Shown piece by piece: positions 1,598 to 8,339 of a DNA stretch of 45,773 nucleotides (its first letter is position 1; each line of letters starts with the position of its first letter). Under the pieces are notes generated by a model. That model searched no databases. It worked only from the letters and a program-made list of their open reading frames with translations, and was not told the origin of the DNA. The DNA is taken from NCBI RefSeq assembly GCF_000633415.1, contig NZ_AYMV01000050.1, positions 1 to 45,773 on the forward strand, in the 5' to 3' direction. The position numbers were made by a program, and so were the translations under genes. The stretch comes from Leucobacter sp. PH1c. GTDB lineage: Bacteria > Actinomycetota > Actinomycetes > Actinomycetales > Microbacteriaceae.

Positions 1598-2329
1598 TTA
1601 GAGGCCGCCGGCAACCCGCAGCACTGCGCCCGTCGCGTACGCGGCGTCCTCGGAGATGAGCCAGGCCACCGCCCCCGCGATCTCGTCCGGCTGCCCGGCC
1701 CGGCCGAGCGGGATCGCCGCGGCGACCTTGGCCGGCCGATCCGGATCGAGATGGAAATCAGTCCACACCGTGCCCGGCTCGACGCAATTGACGCGAACAC
1801 CGGAGGGCGCGAGCTCCTTGGCGAGCCCGACCGCGAGCGTGGCGACCGCCGCCTTCGCCGCGGCGTAGTGTACGTAGCTCCCGGGGCTGCCACTCGCTGT
1901 GGCGGCAGAGCCGAGCAGAACGATCGACCCGCCCGTGCGGGCAAGCCGGGGCGCCGCGGCGCGGCAGCTGAGCACCGCACCGAGCACGTTCACGTCGAGG
2001 TCGCGCCGGATCGCCTCGGGTTCGAGAGTCGCGAGCGCCCCGACCGCGGTGACGGCGCCCGCGCTCGCCACGAGCCCGCCGAGCGGGCCCAGCGCTTCGG
2101 CGGCGTCGAGGAAGGACTCGAGCGAGGTTGCGTCGGTGATCTCGACGCGCCGGGCTGCGGCGACACGGCCCGCGGCCCGCAGCTCACGAACGAGCGCTTC
2201 CGCAGCGGCCTCGTCGGAGCGGTAGCCGACGAGGACCCCGAAGCCGTCGTGCGCAAGACGCCGCACGATCGCGGCACCGATTCCGCGAGACCCGCCAGTG
2301 ACGGCAATGATTCGAGCGCTTCGTTCCAT
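1598..2329 (-). CDS. SDR family NAD(P)-dependent oxidoreductase
   Basis: This is a classical short-chain dehydrogenase/reductase of 243 residues, the usual length. TGGSRGIG (residues 11-18) is the cofactor loop, SAG (89-91) stands in the NAG position, N114 is the structural Asn, and S141, Y155 and K159 (YAAAK) form the catalytic set. The C-terminal PLGRAGQPDEIAGAVAWLISEDAAYATGAVLRVAGG block is the standard FabG-like ending. The start ATG has AGAGG seven bases upstream. It resembles 3-oxoacyl-ACP reductase or glucose-dehydrogenase-type SDRs; the substrate cannot be read from sequence. Cytoplasmic, apparently a single-gene unit. Confidence 0.92.
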   Translation of the reverse strand: MERSARIIAVTGGSRGIGAAIVRRLAHDGFGVLVGYRSDEAAAEALVRELRAAGRVAAARRVEITDATSLESFLDAAEALGPLGGLVASAGAVTAVGALATLEPEAIRRDLDVNVLGAVLSCRAAAPRLARTGGSIVLLGSAATASGSPGSYVHYAAAKAAVATLAVGLAKELAPSGVRVNCVEPGTVWTDFHLDPDRPAKVAAAIPLGRAGQPDEIAGAVAWLISEDAAYATGAVLRVAGGL

Positions 2330-2581: not shown

Positions 2582-2917
2582 ATGACACGACGAAGTTCAC
2601 GATTCTGGGGAGCTGGTGTGCTCTCGGCGGCGCTGCTCGCCGCAGCGATCGTTCCCGTAAGCGCCGCCCACGCATCGGCGGGCAACCAGCAGGGCGCGCA
2701 GTATCTTCACGGCGGCTACTGGGACTACGGCGTGAGCTCGACCGTGGTCTGGTCTCGCTACCATCACAGCTGGTTCACGCACTACGTAGGCGTGCAGGCC
2801 GGCGAGCGTGTGGTGTGGGCCAAGACCAAACCAGGTTGGAGAATCTATCTTGAGATCCCCCGCGTCGCCTACGAGAACTATCAGTTCGCCGGCCTCGGAG
2901 ATCCGCCCCGGGTCTAA
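2582..2917 (+). CDS. Lactococcin-972-like bacteriocin precursor
   Basis: A 111-residue secreted peptide. Residues 1-33 form a Sec signal peptide (RR, then a hydrophobic stretch, with AHA and ASA cleavage options at 29-33). The mature part contains GGYWDYGV (44-51) followed by SSTVVWSRYHHSWFTHYVGV, which matches the layout of lactococcin 972 (G-x-W-x-x-G...SS..YSNYHH..KTH) and the aromatic C-terminal region of that family. Lactococcin 972 binds lipid II and blocks septum formation in Lactococcus; the same target here is only inferred. Chosen start: the ATG at 2582, which directly precedes the signal peptide. A strong hairpin follows the stop and the self-protection/export genes follow it, the usual family context. 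Aromatic residues replace several residues of the reference peptide, so it is a divergent member. Confidence 0.8.
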   Translation: MTRRSSRFWGAGVLSAALLAAAIVPVSAAHASAGNQQGAQYLHGGYWDYGVSSTVVWSRYHHSWFTHYVGVQAGERVVWAKTKPGWRIYLEIPRVAYENYQFAGLGDPPRV

Positions 2918-2931
2918 TTGGCGCGTGCCGA

Positions 2932-2980
2932 CCGCGGGTGCGACGGGGTCGCGACATACGCGCCCCCGTCGCACCCGCGG
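2932..2980 (+). terminator. Strong hairpin after the bacteriocin gene (attenuator)
   Basis: The arms 2932-2948 and 2964-2980 are perfectly complementary over 17 bp around a 15-base loop, starting 14 bases after the bacteriocin stop codon. There is no T-run. It probably ends or protects most transcripts, so that the peptide is made in excess over the downstream export/immunity genes. Confidence 0.8.
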
Positions 2981-3053
2981 GCCGTCTCAGCAACGTCACG
3001 AGCGAACCGCCGTGTGGGACCCCGCACGAGAGCACAGCAGCAACGGAGACCAC

Positions 3054-3671
3054 ATGAGAAAACAGACCATCGTGCCGCTCATCGCGGCACTCCTCCTCGC
3101 GGGCGCCACCGCGGGGTGCGCCCCGGCAGAACCGAGCCCGCGGAAGGACGGGACACCGGAGTTCTCGGGCCCTTACGCCGAGGAGTTCCGCAAGACGTAC
3201 GAGAAGACCACCGACCCCGAGCTCCGCGCATTCCTCGAGGACGGCAAGATCACGGAGGCCGAGTCACAGGCCGTGGTGGAGCGGCTGCGCACCTGCCTCG
3301 CGGAGCACGGGATCACGCTCGTAAGGAGCGATGAGAACAGCAGCGAGGCCACCCTCCCGGAAGCTGGGCCCGCACGTGAGAACGCCGGTGAGCTGCTCCA
3401 AGAGTGCGGTACGCAATCCGGAGAGTTCTCGGTGCTCCCTCTGTACTACTCGATGAAGCAGGACCCGCAGAAGCAGATCACCACCGAAACTCTCGTCGCG
3501 TGCCTCGTCCGAGCCGGGGTCGTCCCCGAGGGCTTCACCGTCAAGGACTACGAGAGCGGAGGCATCGACGCCTACCACCCGCCCGAGGTGCTCTACGAGC
3601 CCGCAGGCGCGGAGACCCTGGAGCGCATCAAGACGTGCCACAGCGATCCACTGGGCTCCTATGTCGACTAG
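3054..3671 (+). CDS. Bacteriocin-locus lipoprotein
   Basis: A 205-residue predicted lipoprotein. The first 22 residues form a lipoprotein signal ending in TAGC (Cys22). The mature part is hydrophilic, with four further cysteines in RTCLAEHG, QECGT, VACLVRAG and KTCHS contexts that could pair as disulfides outside the membrane. I do not recognise a named domain. Its last 11 bases overlap the next gene, so it is translationally coupled to the transporter genes. Lipoproteins in bacteriocin loci often give self-immunity, which is a reasonable but untested role here. The ATG at 3054 has a GGAG-type ribosome site. Confidence 0.75.
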   Translation: MRKQTIVPLIAALLLAGATAGCAPAEPSPRKDGTPEFSGPYAEEFRKTYEKTTDPELRAFLEDGKITEAESQAVVERLRTCLAEHGITLVRSDENSSEATLPEAGPARENAGELLQECGTQSGEFSVLPLYYSMKQDPQKQITTETLVACLVRAGVVPEGFTVKDYESGGIDAYHPPEVLYEPAGAETLERIKTCHSDPLGSYVD

Positions 3672-4746
3672 GCGGAAGAGCGCAATGGTGTCCGTCTCTG
3701 CCGTCGCGGCGGTCGTACTCATCACGGGCGGCGCGGTCGCGGGGCAGCGGCTCCTCCCGGTTTCGGAGCCCGCGGCGCTCAGCCCCGCAAGCGCGCGCAC
3801 GGAGTTCGACGTGGAGCCCATCACCCACGACGACGCACGCACTGTGCAGGTCGGCATCACCCGTGGGGAGGATCACTCGCTCAGCGCGAAGATCGAGGGC
3901 CGGCTCACCCGGTCCGCCTGCGCCGCCGGGGAGCCCATCGTCTCCGGCGGCGTCGTGGCGCAGGTCGACGACAAGAGCGTGCTCGCCCTCCACACCACGC
4001 TTCCACTGTGGGAGCCGCTCGAGATGGGAGCCACCGGGGAAGAGGTGAACGGGCTCCGACAGGAACTCGCCCGCATGGGCGCCGACCTCCTCCCCGAAGG
4101 GCCGGTCAATCAGGCGGTGGTGTCCGTCGTGGCGTCGCTCCTCGCGGGCGAGGACGCCACCCCCGAACGCCTCACCGAGATCCCCTCCGACCGCATCCTG
4201 TGGATCCCTGAACGATCCGTCACGGTGCTGAAGTGCTCTGCCAGAGTCGGCCAGACGCTCTCCGCCAACGATCCGCTCGGCGTTGTCTCCGGCACGCTGC
4301 AGTCCGTGCAGGTCCGCGCGCTCCCCACGGACCTCGCCCCCGGGGCTCGACAGCTGAGCATCGGCGGGGTGTCGGTCGAGGTCGACGAGGCCGGATCCGT
4401 CACCTCCGCGGAGGGGCTCGCCGCGCTCGCGGCAACACCCGAGGTCGCGGCGAGCCGCAGCGATCCAGACGCGAAGGGCGGGGGCGAGGCGCCCACGGTC
4501 ACCGGACGACTGGCGCTGAGCGAGAACGTGGAGGCCTGGGCGGTGCCGGCCGGCGCCGTCTTCGAGGTTCGCGACGCGGCCGGCTGCGTGCTGGGCCCGG
4601 ACGGCGCCCTGCCCGTGCAGATCGTCGGATCGCGTCTCGGGAAGACGTTCGTCGTCCCCGCCGAGGCGGGAGCCTCGTTCCCGGGCAGCGTGCGCACCCC
4701 CGAGGCCGGGACCGCTTCCTGCTGGGACGACGAGGCAGCCGAGTGA
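3661..4746 (+). CDS. Membrane-fusion-like adaptor with peptidoglycan-binding-like segment
   Basis: The 361-residue product has an N-terminal membrane anchor (residues 8-28) and a long exported part. Residues about 60-105 and 195-240 look like the two halves of a lipoyl/barrel-sandwich fold found in HlyD/MacA-type adaptors. Between them, LWEPLEMGATGEEVNGLRQ (117-135) looks like the start of a PG_binding_1 domain. Such adaptors pair with an ABC ATPase and a MacB-type permease, and both follow at once. The start codon overlaps the lipoprotein gene by 11 bases and its stop overlaps the ATPase start by four. Likely role: linking the export machine to the cell wall in a bacterium without outer membrane. 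The domain assignment is by eye. Confidence 0.7.
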   Translation: MSTRRKSAMVSVSAVAAVVLITGGAVAGQRLLPVSEPAALSPASARTEFDVEPITHDDARTVQVGITRGEDHSLSAKIEGRLTRSACAAGEPIVSGGVVAQVDDKSVLALHTTLPLWEPLEMGATGEEVNGLRQELARMGADLLPEGPVNQAVVSVVASLLAGEDATPERLTEIPSDRILWIPERSVTVLKCSARVGQTLSANDPLGVVSGTLQSVQVRALPTDLAPGARQLSIGGVSVEVDEAGSVTSAEGLAALAATPEVAASRSDPDAKGGGEAPTVTGRLALSENVEAWAVPAGAVFEVRDAAGCVLGPDGALPVQIVGSRLGKTFVVPAEAGASFPGSVRTPEAGTASCWDDEAAE

Positions 4747-5444
4747 GGCTGCGGCTCTCGGCGCTCGGCCACCGCTTCGGGCAGCAGGCCCCGTGGCTGT
4801 TCCGCGGACTCTCCGCGAACCTCAGCCCGGGCGAACGCTGCGCGCTCGTCGGGCCGAGCGGCAGCGGGAAGAGCACGCTGCTCTCGCTCGTCGCCGGCTG
4901 GTCGGCTCCCGCGGAGGGCACGATCCTCCTGGAAGGGATCGAGCGGATTCACTGGGTGTTCCAGAACCCGCACGGCGTGCCGCGGCGCGCGGCGATCGAC
5001 CACGTGGCGTTCCCGCTCCTCGCCCAGGGCGCGGGCCTCGCGGAGGCCGACACCGAAGCCCTCGCGCTCTGCTCCCGAGTGGGCCTCGGCGAGCTCGCAG
5101 ACCGGCGCCCGTTCTCCATGCTCTCGGGCGGCGAGGCGCAGCGCCTCATGCTCGCCCGGGCCATTGCGAGCAAGCCCGATCTGCTCCTCGTCGACGAGCC
5201 CACCGCGCAGCTCGACCGGCGGAGCGCGGTGCTCGTGAATGAGGCGATCGCATCGATCGGCACGGATGGCGGGATCGTGCTGATCGCCACGCACGATGAA
5301 CTCACCGCGGCCGCCTGCGATCGCGAGATCTCGCTCGCGGAGTACACCGATCCCGGAGTGGGCGCGGAGCCACCGGAGCACGCGCCCCGCACCGGGCGCA
5401 CGCGGCGCACGAAACGCACCGAGCGCGCGGAGCTCGAGCAGTGA
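4743..5444 (+). CDS. ABC transporter ATP-binding protein (bacteriocin locus)
   Basis: The 233-residue ATPase has all the motifs: Walker A GPSGSGKST (37-45), Q-loop Q74, signature LSGGE (128-132), Walker B LLLVDEP (147-153) and switch H184. The protein is of the short MacB/LolD type that drives MacB-like permeases, like the ATPase group found beside lactococcin-972 peptides. The GTG start lies in a GTGA overlap with the adaptor stop, and the stop again overlaps the permease start in GTGA, so the three genes are coupled. The C-terminal 35 residues are Arg/Thr/Glu-rich and look disordered. Confidence 0.9.
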   Translation: MRLRLSALGHRFGQQAPWLFRGLSANLSPGERCALVGPSGSGKSTLLSLVAGWSAPAEGTILLEGIERIHWVFQNPHGVPRRAAIDHVAFPLLAQGAGLAEADTEALALCSRVGLGELADRRPFSMLSGGEAQRLMLARAIASKPDLLLVDEPTAQLDRRSAVLVNEAIASIGTDGGIVLIATHDELTAAACDREISLAEYTDPGVGAEPPEHAPRTGRTRRTKRTERAELEQ

Positions 5445-6526
5445 GGCCGTCCGCGATCGCCCGCGAGGTGCGGCGCGACATCGTTTCGGGCGCGACCCGC
5501 GCAGCCTCCACCTGGATCGTGTTCACGGCGCTCCTCCTCGTGCTCGTGCTCCACGAGTCGCTGACGCTGACCGGGATCCTGCGTGCGGCGGAGGCGTACC
5601 AGACCGCGGGTGCGAACATTCGCCTCGTCGTCGCCGACGGGCGCGTCGACGGCGCGGCCTGCGCTGCGCTCGCCGACGAGTACGGGGTGGCGAGCGCAGC
5701 GCTCCGCGTGCTCAACGAGCCCGCGCGCGCCGAGGTCATGCGCGCCGCCCCGCTGAACCAGGTCACCGCGACACCCGGAATCGGGGAGATGCTCGACGCG
5801 ACCGGAACGGGCGGTGGGCCCGTCGATCGTGCCGGTGTGCTGGTGAGCGAGCAGGTAACCGAGCACCTCGGCTCACCCGATCGACCGTGGCCGAGCGACG
5901 CGGGCCCTCTCGATGTGGCGGGGGTCTTCCCCTACCCCGAGGACGGGCGGCGCACGGGCCTCGGCTTCGCCGTGATCTCCCCCGAGCTCCCCGGGGAAGA
6001 GCCCTACGACGAGTGCTGGATCCGGTCGTGGCCGGAGTACCCTGACTTCGGCAGCCTGCTCAGCTCGGTCGTGCTCCCCGCGACGAGCCCCGACACTCCG
6101 GCGCCCGAGATCACCCAGCTCAACACGTCGCTCGGGGCGGGATTCGACGGGGCGGCGCTCTTCCGCGACCGTGCCAGCCGTTTCAATGCCTACGCCGCGC
6201 TCGGGATCGGTGCGGTCGTCGGGGTGGTGGCGGCGCGACGCCGCAGGCTCGAGATTGCGTCGGCACGGCACGCTGGCGCGTCGCCGGGCGACGTGCTGCT
6301 GATCCACACGCTGCAGCACGCGTCATGGATCGCTGCGGGCTGCGCCGTGGCGTTCTCTGCGGGAGCCCTCAGCTCGGCAGCGGCGCCCGGCGCGGTCGGC
6401 ACGCTCACCGAGCTCACCCTGCGCACGGTCAGCCTCGGCGGCGTCGGGGCGCTCCTCGGGGTCGTCGTCACGGTGTGCGCGATCCCCGAGCGCTCGCTGT
6501 TCGACTACTTCAAGCAGCGGGAGTAG
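5441..6526 (+). CDS. MacB/FtsX-like ABC permease (bacteriocin locus)
   Basis: The 361-residue membrane protein has one N-terminal membrane segment (about 22-45), a large extracellular domain of about 200 residues, and three C-terminal membrane segments (about 248-264, 295-315, 329-348). This is the MacB/FtsX topology, and corresponds to half or a reduced form of the large 'bacteriocin-associated integral membrane protein' of lactococcin-972 loci. Its GTG start overlaps the ATPase stop by four bases. Together with the ATPase and adaptor it probably expels or removes the peptide from the producer's membrane. It ends 9 bases from the convergent MarR gene. Confidence 0.8.
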   Translation: MRPSAIAREVRRDIVSGATRAASTWIVFTALLLVLVLHESLTLTGILRAAEAYQTAGANIRLVVADGRVDGAACAALADEYGVASAALRVLNEPARAEVMRAAPLNQVTATPGIGEMLDATGTGGGPVDRAGVLVSEQVTEHLGSPDRPWPSDAGPLDVAGVFPYPEDGRRTGLGFAVISPELPGEEPYDECWIRSWPEYPDFGSLLSSVVLPATSPDTPAPEITQLNTSLGAGFDGAALFRDRASRFNAYAALGIGAVVGVVAARRRRLEIASARHAGASPGDVLLIHTLQHASWIAAGCAVAFSAGALSSAAAPGAVGTLTELTLRTVSLGGVGALLGVVVTVCAIPERSLFDYFKQRE

Positions 6527-6535
6527 CGGGCCGAG

Positions 6536-7018
6536 CTACGCAGGCTCGGGCGAGCGTTCCGGCTGCTCGCCCGAGCCGTCGGCGATCCGCTGGAACATCG
6601 CGGAGAGCTGCTCGATCTCGTCCTGGGCGAGGCGGCCGAAGACCCGTTCGCGCACGAACTCGAAGTGCCGCTCCTGCAGACCGAGGATGTGTGCTCGGCC
6701 GGCGTCGGTGAGCACTGCGATCACGGCGCGAGATCCGGCGGCTCCCCCGGTGCCGCCCTCGCGCTGCACCCAGCCGGCCTTCTCGAGCTGCCCCACCTGA
6801 TAGGTCAGCCCGCTGCGCGAGATCCCCACGGCGTCGGCGAGCTCGTGCATGCGCAGCCCGCGCTCCGACTGCTCGAGCATGAGCAGGATCTCGAACTGCA
6901 CGAGCGAGATCCCCCCGAGTTCCTGCGCCTGCTTGCCGAGACTCAAGCGGATCGACACGATCGCGCGCTTCATCGTTGCGTATGCGGCGAGCTCGACGGG
7001 AGTGATCTGTGCGGACAC
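6536..7018 (-). CDS. MarR family transcriptional regulator
   Basis: A winged-helix repressor of 160 residues. ISLVQFEILLMLEQSERGLRMHELADAVGISRSGLTYQVGQLEKAGWVQRE is the recognition-helix region and the wing follows with GGAAGSRAVIAVLTDAGR. I place the start at the GTG at 7018 because TATGCT (minus strand, 7025-7030) lies 6 bases upstream, giving a leaderless mRNA; a longer GTG start at 7039 adds 7 residues and cannot be excluded. A -35 TTGAAC (minus, 7050-7055) overlaps operator 1, so the gene is probably autoregulated. It is divergent from the membrane exporter gene, its most likely target. Confidence 0.88.
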   Translation of the reverse strand: MSAQITPVELAAYATMKRAIVSIRLSLGKQAQELGGISLVQFEILLMLEQSERGLRMHELADAVGISRSGLTYQVGQLEKAGWVQREGGTGGAAGSRAVIAVLTDAGRAHILGLQERHFEFVRERVFGRLAQDEIEQLSAMFQRIADGSGEQPERSPEPA

Positions 7019-7045
7019 CCCCTCAGCATACCTACCCACTACGGA

Positions 7046-7142: not shown

Positions 7143-8339
7143 ATGTCCAGAGCAGCTCTCCTCACCGATGCCGCCGAGTCAGAACTCCCCCTCTCCACCG
7201 CCTCATCTGTCCAGCCTGTTTCCCCCTCATCGTTCGGCCGGGCCATCGGCCTCGCCATCGCCGCGGCCGCGGTCGTCTGCCTGGTCCTCCTCGCCTTCGC
7301 CTGGCCAGCCATCACCTCGACGCCCCACGACATCCCCGTCGGCGTTGTGGGGTCGACCGAACAGGTCGAGCAGCTCGAATCGCGCCTCGCCGAGCAGTCG
7401 GACGGCGCTCTCGCCCTCGAACGCTTCGACGACCGCGAGGACGCCGTCACCGCCATCACCGAGCGCCGGGCCTACGGCGCAATCGTGCTCGATGCGACAA
7501 CGCCCACGGCACCGCCCGAGATGCTCATCGCGACCGCGGCGAACACCGCAGTCGCGCAACTCTTGCAGGGCCTCGCAACCGGAATGCAGGCGCAGCTCAC
7601 CGAGCAGGTGAACGCGGGCGTCGAGGAGCGCGTGCAGCAGCTCATCGACACGCTCTCCGCGCTCCAGGCCGGGCAGCTGCCGCCGGGCGCCGGCGCCGCG
7701 AACGCGGGCGCCCCGGGAACCGCGCTGCCCACCGAGTTCTCGATGCCGGACACCCGCATCACCGTGACCGACGTCGTCCCGCTCTCCGCAGATGACCCCC
7801 GCGGCGCGGGCCTCTCGGCCGCAGCGCTCCCCCTCGTGATGGGCGGCATGATCGGCGCCATGATCATCTCGACCGCGATCCACGGCAGCCGCCGCCGGGC
7901 GGTCGCCCTGCTCGTCTACACCGTGGCCGCCGGACTCGCGCTCACCGCGATTCTCGAGGGCTGGTTCGGCGCGCTGCAGAACAACTATTGGCTCAACGCG
8001 CTCGCGATCACGCTCGCGATCGGCGCCATCTCCGCAACGATCGTCGGCCTGCGCAGCGTGCTCGGCTACGCCGGGCTCGGGATCGGGGCCGTGCTCATGT
8101 TCTTCTTCGCGAACCCGATCTCCGGCGCGGCGCTGCCACCGGAGTTCCTCGTCGGATCCTGGGGCGCCATCGGCCAGTGGTTCCCGCCGGGCGCGGGTCA
8201 GACGCTGATTCGCACGCTCTCCTACTTCCCCGAGGCGGACCAGGTCTTCCCCTGGACCGTACTCGGAGCGTGGACGGCGCTCGGGCTCGTGCTCATCTGG
8301 ATCGGCTCGCTCCGCAAGACGGCACCGAAGACGGCCTAG
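7143..8339 (+). CDS. ABC-2/YhgE-Pip-like membrane exporter
   Basis: The 398-residue product has one N-terminal membrane segment (about 33-54), an extracellular region of about 160 residues (ending near LPTEFSMPDTRITVTDVVPLSADDPRGAG), and about five C-terminal membrane segments. This is the topology of YhgE/Pip and DUF3533-type proteins, relatives of ABC-2 permeases that lack their own ATPase. No ATPase gene is adjacent. Control by the divergent MarR protein through two operators suggests an inducible efflux or stress function; the substrate is unknown. The reading frame ends in a four-base convergent overlap with the DapA-like gene. Confidence 0.75.
   Translation: MSRAALLTDAAESELPLSTASSVQPVSPSSFGRAIGLAIAAAAVVCLVLLAFAWPAITSTPHDIPVGVVGSTEQVEQLESRLAEQSDGALALERFDDREDAVTAITERRAYGAIVLDATTPTAPPEMLIATAANTAVAQLLQGLATGMQAQLTEQVNAGVEERVQQLIDTLSALQAGQLPPGAGAANAGAPGTALPTEFSMPDTRITVTDVVPLSADDPRGAGLSAAALPLVMGGMIGAMIISTAIHGSRRRAVALLVYTVAAGLALTAILEGWFGALQNNYWLNALAITLAIGAISATIVGLRSVLGYAGLGIGAVLMFFFANPISGAALPPEFLVGSWGAIGQWFPPGAGQTLIRTLSYFPEADQVFPWTVLGAWTALGLVLIWIGSLRKTAPKTA

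Follow-up and report, generated by a model that had tools for sequence, protein, structure and literature searches.

A five-gene operon of Leucobacter sp. PH1c combines a secreted peptide of the lactococcin 972 family with a small lipoprotein, an adaptor, an ATP-binding cassette (ABC) ATPase and an FtsX/MacB-like permease, all encoded on the plus strand as read from the sequence. The operon lies on contig NZ_AYMV01000050.1 (45,773 nucleotides, contig C50 of a 3.1-Mb genome; the whole contig is hereafter called the window). The system is real, conserved and only partly known, and its partner cassette differs from the classical lactococcin 972 one. The lipoprotein is the leading candidate for an immunity factor, and the pump is the leading candidate for clearing the peptide. 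Peptide and lipoprotein diverge together across loci, and the same lipoprotein family adjoins further types of small secreted protein, one of which folds like lactococcin 972 in a structure model.

The peptide and its conserved partner genes

The peptide scored 26.2 bits against Pfam family PF09683 (E 1.2e-5; 27.5 bits in another scan), above the gathering cut-off of 22, as expected from the original prediction of a lactococcin 972-family bacteriocin. The family pattern is present, namely an N-terminal Sec signal, a small mature domain and the core GG-W-YG ... S-Y-H ... H. A hydrophobic segment occupies residues 6-34, the type of signal being judged by eye, and the mature peptide has no cysteine. 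Among 18 relatives, G45, S58, H62 and H67 are invariant and G44, W47 and Y49 nearly so. A profile of these 18 sequences, which include the window peptide, matched the solved structure of lactococcin 972 (2LGN, E 2e-9) and that of a lactococcin 972 family bacteriocin (9HKJ, E 6e-6). Searched alone, the window peptide did not find 2LGN, and no NCBIfam model matched it at E<=1, so that TIGR01653 (lactococcin_972, cut-off 32.1 bits) is not reached. On these two grounds it is classed, from its sequence, as a divergent member of the Pfam lactococcin 972 family outside the NCBIfam subfamily model. It had been thought to lack any nameable relative; relatives exist, including a second one in its own genome (41% identity over 61 amino acids).

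The partner genes are tightly packed, as originally described, with overlaps of 11 bases (lipoprotein/adaptor), 4 bases (adaptor/ATPase) and 4 bases (ATPase/permease), whereas a gap of 136 bases lies between the peptide and lipoprotein genes. This arrangement is not due to chance, since the same order recurs in other Microbacteriaceae, where the original prediction proposed to look for it, and beyond. At E<=0.01, PF09683 had matches in 12 of the 149 genomes, the own genome being one of them, and 16 such places besides the window were extended (L013, a 1.7-kb piece, was left out). In a tblastn search with the window proteins, 11 of the 16 (L019, L021-L024, L027-L032) had a lipoprotein homologue close to the peptide. 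All 11 belong to the family of the window organism, and the remaining five, from other families (L020, L025, L026, L033, L034), had none. The lipoprotein is followed by adaptor, ATPase and permease in six of the 11 (L027-L032). In L021 the adaptor is present and the permease has an internal stop; this locus and L158 / L110 (Leucobacter coleopterorum) appear to be decaying cassettes, with permeases in two frames or interrupted by a stop.

A census was then anchored on the permease alone, using one pattern-based scan and the best 80 of 112 confirmed matches, with profiles built from the PF09683-derived regions and refined on the 80 loci. The lipoprotein is kept in 77 of the 80; it precedes the adaptor in 68, and in eight it is found solely after the permease. 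Lipoprotein matches number one in 55 loci, two in 18 and three in four; at a threshold of at least 100 bits there are two in 12 loci and three in three, with L063 and L073 reaching two since each holds two cassettes. The pump occurs without a lipoprotein in three loci (L048, L054 and L113, the latter two on contigs that are cut). Judged by the names of their organisms, all 80 loci come from actinobacteria, and the suggestion that such a machine is peculiar to this group fits as far as seen among these best 80 of 112 matches. Across the 149 genomes, 24 have the lipoprotein, 18 the permease and 16 both (p 8e-14); once the seven genomes from which profile rows were drawn are removed, the counts are 17, 11 and nine of 142 (p 2e-8). 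A plasmid link was not supported, as the window permease had no match in 72,556 plasmid records.

Alignment of 94 lipoproteins showed no variation at C81, C118, C150, C195 and P138 and little at the lipobox cysteine C22, which is kept in at least 90%; a lipobox pattern was found in 88 of 98. The window lipoprotein has no Pfam match at E<=1. Its structure model is confident (predicted local distance difference test 89.9; predicted template modelling score 0.77) and mostly helical, with a short strand pair. Lipoprotein genes are lower in G+C than the permease gene of the same locus in 72 of 74 loci. At third positions this holds in only 51 of 74, by 4.6 points on average, and amino-acid composition explains much of the difference; for these reasons low G+C was not used as a sign of separate origin.

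For the adaptor, hydropathy places a membrane anchor at residues 6-32. The peptidoglycan-binding-like segment of the original prediction is unrecognised in the window's own adaptor, but PG_binding_1 (PF01471) matched 18 of 30 adaptors scanned, the window's not among them, and positions 119-164 of the adaptor profile, where this segment lies, matched peptidoglycan-binding domains of solved structure (E 2.8e-4 at best). The same profile gave weak biotinyl-domain matches (E 0.59 and 0.94), and HlyD_3 and HlyD_D23 each matched one of the 30 adaptors, perhaps the same one. The ATPase scored 103.2 bits against L_ocin_972_ABC (TIGR03608), under the cut-off of 254.85, and the window permease had no match to TIGR01654 at E<=1, so both families of the classical operon fall short of their cut-offs. 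Permease hydropathy shows an N-terminal hydrophobic segment, a large outer domain and C-terminal hydrophobic segments. Permease homologues matched FtsX in four of 30 and MacB_PCD in two of 30 (E<=0.01), and the permease profile found no clear relative among PDB sequences.

Pairing of peptide and lipoprotein, and further peptide types

Covariation was measured in 19 loci with lactococcin 972-type peptides, taking the first lipoprotein after the peptide and applying Spearman correlation and Mantel tests. Peptide distances tracked those between lipoproteins (0.33, p 0.0035) and not those between permeases (0.11, p 0.19) or adaptors (0.19, p 0.08). The peptide-lipoprotein correlation persisted given the permease (0.32, p 0.0035) or the adaptor (0.28, p 0.009), and the peptide-permease correlation given the lipoprotein was -0.01. 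Without permeases more than 60% identical (17 loci), the values were 0.31 (p 0.007) and, given the permease, 0.30 (p 0.013).

The own genome holds four lipoprotein homologues and one permease. On contig C32 (L019:6602-7623), the gene of the second lactococcin 972-like peptide, which scored 21.3 and 21.0 bits against PF09683, just under the cut-off, overlaps a lipoprotein gene by 4 bases. On C20 (L156), a secreted open reading frame (ORF) of 108 amino acids lies directly before a lipoprotein gene, and on C18 (L155) a lipoprotein occurs without a detected peptide. No permease homologue was found beside the lipoproteins of these three contigs. Because these own-genome pairs occur away from the sole permease, the peptide-lipoprotein pair can stand apart from the pump genes. 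In five other loci (L044, L060, L081, L084, L094), both genes of the pair follow the permease gene where they would usually precede it, as if inserted or moved as a unit.

In the 80 census loci, the neighbour of the lipoprotein is a lactococcin 972-type peptide in 18 (no more than 1.5 kb away), a small secreted ORF of another kind in 42 (nine of them named by hand; L073 and L082 are doubtful) and neither in 20. The original prediction had taken common occurrence of the downstream genes without such a peptide as a point against it. This was found in part: 62 of the 80 loci have no lactococcin 972 profile match beside the lipoprotein, and 42 of these 62 carry the other secreted ORFs, one type of which folds like lactococcin 972 in a model.

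The association of secreted ORFs with the lipoprotein was measured with a fixed detector (a length of 60-160 amino acids, a ribosome-binding site, a start that is basic and hydrophobic with no membrane segment after it, and a stop at most 800 bases upstream). It was positive upstream of 67 of 132 lipoproteins versus 12 of 418 other long ORFs (p 2e-36), of 40 of 95 adaptors, where the 800-base range frequently takes in the peptide that precedes the lipoprotein, and of only 1 of 95 ATPases and 2 of 99 permeases. Per locus it was positive in 60 of 99; some loci were entered twice and a few of the detected ORFs are probably not genes. Ten examples of types other than lactococcin 972 were all without a Pfam or NCBIfam family over cut-off.

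Type B (L072:4220-4507 and nine further loci) comprises small secreted proteins with an AxHG...W motif, and none of three scanned has a Pfam or NCBIfam family. The confident model of one type B peptide had lactococcin 972 (2LGN) as its top PDB match and also matched 9HKJ. Types D (L042, L045, L047, L078, L090, L097, L105, L157) and D2 (L083, L067, L071, L089, L114) are small secreted proteins, mostly with at least two cysteines, that adjoin the same lipoprotein family. The types are separated by sequence, the fold comparison covering type B among types B, C, D, D2, E and F. Profile comparison between types, with groups and mature-part ends set by eye, found no homology; the best pairs were Lcn-F (E 0.005, 4.9% probability) and C-D2a (E 0.002, 9.7%).

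Proposed mechanism and alternative explanations

We consider it fairly probable that the lipoprotein is the cognate immunity protein and that adaptor, ATPase and permease form a MacAB/YknXYZ-like pump which clears the peptide from membrane or wall. The peptide would be exported by Sec, lose its signal and fold as a small beta-sandwich of the lactococcin 972 kind. It would then act outside the membrane, probably on lipid II, as the family suggests, and would kill susceptible cells. The lipoprotein, anchored to the membrane from outside and with two disulfides that probably lend it rigidity, would serve as a specific immunity partner that intercepts the peptide before it reaches its target. The pump would push the peptide, free or held by the lipoprotein, off the membrane and out through the wall, in which the peptidoglycan-binding-like segment of the adaptor may seat the pump. 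Of the two roles originally offered, a wall-spanning pump and a lipid II-linked self-protection machine, the evidence favours the second: the lipoprotein would be the specific partner and the pump would do the clearing. With a Sec signal on the peptide, the pump is not needed to carry it across the membrane.

The gap between peptide and lipoprotein genes folds strongly (2915-3053; z -4.85, with none of 200 shuffles equally stable). The comparison was with peptide-lipoprotein gaps of 30-400 bases in 28 other loci where a peptide was detected; z fell below -3 in 14 of them, of which three are near-identical bifidobacteria (L086, L098, L100). The hairpin is a possible attenuator or transcript stabiliser. 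It fits partial termination or stabilisation that sets the peptide above the immunity protein, and may thus let the cell make the peptide in excess of it.

More broadly, the lipoprotein-pump cassette may be common to several sequence families of small secreted proteins, lactococcin 972 being one. It could mark a large and mostly unannotated class of actinobacterial bacteriocins, in which sequence-unrelated peptides with the lactococcin 972 beta-sandwich each have their own variant from one new family of immunity lipoproteins and a generic pump, and the pair moves and diversifies around a standing pump. We judge this wider proposal to be evenly poised, type B being the one modelled type on which its claim of several lactococcin 972-fold families stands.

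Several observations weigh against these proposals. The structure models cover the lipoprotein and one type B peptide, and the fold of the window peptide is predicted from its relatives. Fold searches with the lipoprotein model found no clear relative among solved structures, nor did the lipoprotein profile among PDB sequences, an absence of match that does not demonstrate a new fold. The window adaptor has no Pfam match at E<=1, even for the peptidoglycan-binding-like segment, and the window permease reached 15.5 bits against FtsX, under the Pfam cut-off of 25.5. UniRef gives one type B homologue the name peptidase inhibitor family I36. A recognised peptide is missing from 20 of the 80 census loci, of which L054, L085, L093 and L113 lie on short or cut contigs. 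The genomes with pump-less pairs (the own genome and G044, G013 and G085, with L022, L023 and L024) all hold a pump elsewhere, which the pairs may borrow. Finally, peptide type changes eight times on the lipoprotein tree and ten times on each of the permease and adaptor trees (51 loci, leaving out L097, which has no usable lipoprotein model), a weak difference that was too small to be used as evidence of pairing.

The cassette may alternatively be an export machine, in which the lipoprotein is a chaperone or holdase after Sec release, the adaptor and pump carry the peptide through the thick wall, and protection is secondary or takes another route. The peptidoglycan-binding segment of 18 of the 30 adaptors would suit such a role, the pairing of lipoprotein and peptide would be expected of a chaperone too, a pump is available elsewhere in the genomes with pump-less pairs, and MacAB has reportedly a part in enterotoxin secretion (PMC4887032). 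Export by the pump is nevertheless less likely than clearance, because the peptides carry Sec signals; peptide divergence is moreover independent of pump divergence, and the 15 of 80 loci with two or three strong lipoprotein matches (two of them L063 and L073, with their double cassettes) resemble immunity arrays. We therefore hold export to be unlikely. More doubtful still is a detoxification or sensing module, in which lipoprotein and pump fend off cell-wall-active peptides of foreign origin, with the small protein serving as a decoy, a signal or an inhibitor and not as a bacteriocin. Such a module would account for the 20 loci without a recognised peptide, for the lone lipoprotein on C18 and for the several peptide types without known function. 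Against it, the Pfam and NCBIfam scans found no regulator among the five operon genes, a convergent MarR gene coming after them, the window peptide falls in a bacteriocin family, and the lipoproteins track the local peptide.

A classical lactococcin 972 system in which the large membrane protein became split and rearranged is a very improbable reading of the locus, even though the peptide family is the same and the operon contains an ABC ATPase. The classical layout, in which the neighbours of the peptide are an ATPase and either one large membrane protein or two, occurs in other families of the order (L020, L025, L033, L034). Of the two of these loci whose proteins were scanned, L020 is no nearer to the classical models than the window, its ATPase scoring 102 bits against TIGR03608 (the window's 103) and its large protein having no NCBIfam family at E<=1e-5. 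L033, however, matches TIGR01654 with 67 bits, where the cut-off is 189 and the window permease has no match. The ATPase of L033 scores 217 bits against TIGR03608 (cut-off 254.85), so that this locus comes closer than the window and still stays under both cut-offs; the loci of this layout, moreover, have no lipoprotein or adaptor homologue by tblastn. A general efflux pump with small secreted proteins nearby by coincidence is scarcely credible: the three loci with a pump and no lipoprotein would agree with it, but secreted ORFs are far too concentrated upstream of the lipoproteins (67 of 132 versus 12 of 418).

Locus layout and relation to known systems

The features of the locus are collected in Table 1. 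The stretch 2330-2581, which is lower in GC (62% G+C), probably contains the operon promoter. The MarR-type regulator and the 398-amino-acid gene divergent from it are probably unrelated to the operon.

Table 1. Features of the operon and its flanks in the window
Feature	Position	Strand	Basis
Lactococcin 972-family secreted peptide, proposed bacteriocin, 111 amino acids	2582..2917	+	PF09683 score, profile match to 2LGN
Sec signal of the peptide, about residues 1-33	2582-2680	+	Judged by eye from the sequence
Strong RNA hairpin, 17-bp outer stem, no T run after	2932..2980	+	Folding of 2915-3053
Lipoprotein, 205 amino acids, lipobox C22; proposed cognate immunity protein	3054..3671	+	Alignment, model, peptide linkage
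Adaptor, MacA/YknX-like, N-terminal membrane anchor and degenerate peptidoglycan-binding-like segment	3661..4746	+	Pfam/PDB profile matches in homologues
ABC ATPase, GTG start	4743..5444	+	Pfam ABC_tran, 99.5 bits
Permease, 361 amino acids, FtsX/MacB-like layout	5441..6526	+	Hydropathy; weak FtsX score
Short-chain dehydrogenase gene, divergent from the operon	1598-2329	-	
MarR-type regulator (Pfam MarR_2), convergent with the operon	6536-7039	-	
Gene of 398 amino acids without Pfam match, divergent from the MarR-type gene	7143-8339	+	

The operons of lactococcin 972 and streptococcin B, as described in PMC11796350, likewise have a family peptide first and an ABC ATPase; here a lipoprotein, an adaptor and a 361-amino-acid permease replace their one large membrane protein. 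Transport and immunity have been ascribed to the partner genes of lactococcin 972 loci (PMC4289311), and the functions of these genes are given as unverified in any such locus (PMC11796350). Lactococcin 972-like clusters are known from P. acnes, where the gene organisation differs, and B. longum infantis (PMC4289311), and from Frigoribacterium (PMC12823222); in the accessible portions of these reports, neither the cassette nor peptides of the unrelated types are described. Formosin D, with a structure released in December 2025 (PDB 9HKJ), is listed as a lactococcin 972 family bacteriocin; both the profile of the window peptide's family and the type B model matched it. No earlier description of the lipoprotein-adaptor-pump cassette was found in the literature searched, a collection without preprints and without the majority of subscription papers.

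In nisin producers, a lipoprotein that binds the peptide works together with an ABC pump, and the division of labour proposed here would be that of NisI and NisFEG, with a lipoprotein binding the peptide outside and a pump expelling it (PMC8538875). The present lipoprotein has no detected sequence relation or clear fold relation to NisI, and the pump differs from NisFEG in its adaptor and MacB-like permease. NisEG is another permease type. We think that the lipoprotein may play the same part as NisI or SpaI, though it has no demonstrated kinship to either. To our knowledge, YknWXYZ of Bacillus is not encoded with the SDP toxin and has no peptidoglycan-binding segment. This pump protects a monoderm from SDP, a secreted peptide toxin, with an adaptor, ATPase and MacB-like permease as in the cassette, and its fourth part is the Yip1 protein YknW, where the cassette has a lipoprotein (PMC4887032).

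The self-protection of lactococcin 972 producers is unproven, and the cassette names one small and easily expressed lipoprotein as a testable candidate for their immunity. Searches with the permease and the lipoprotein together also provide a genome-mining handle for small secreted proteins, which Pfam and NCBIfam missed in all ten examples scanned.

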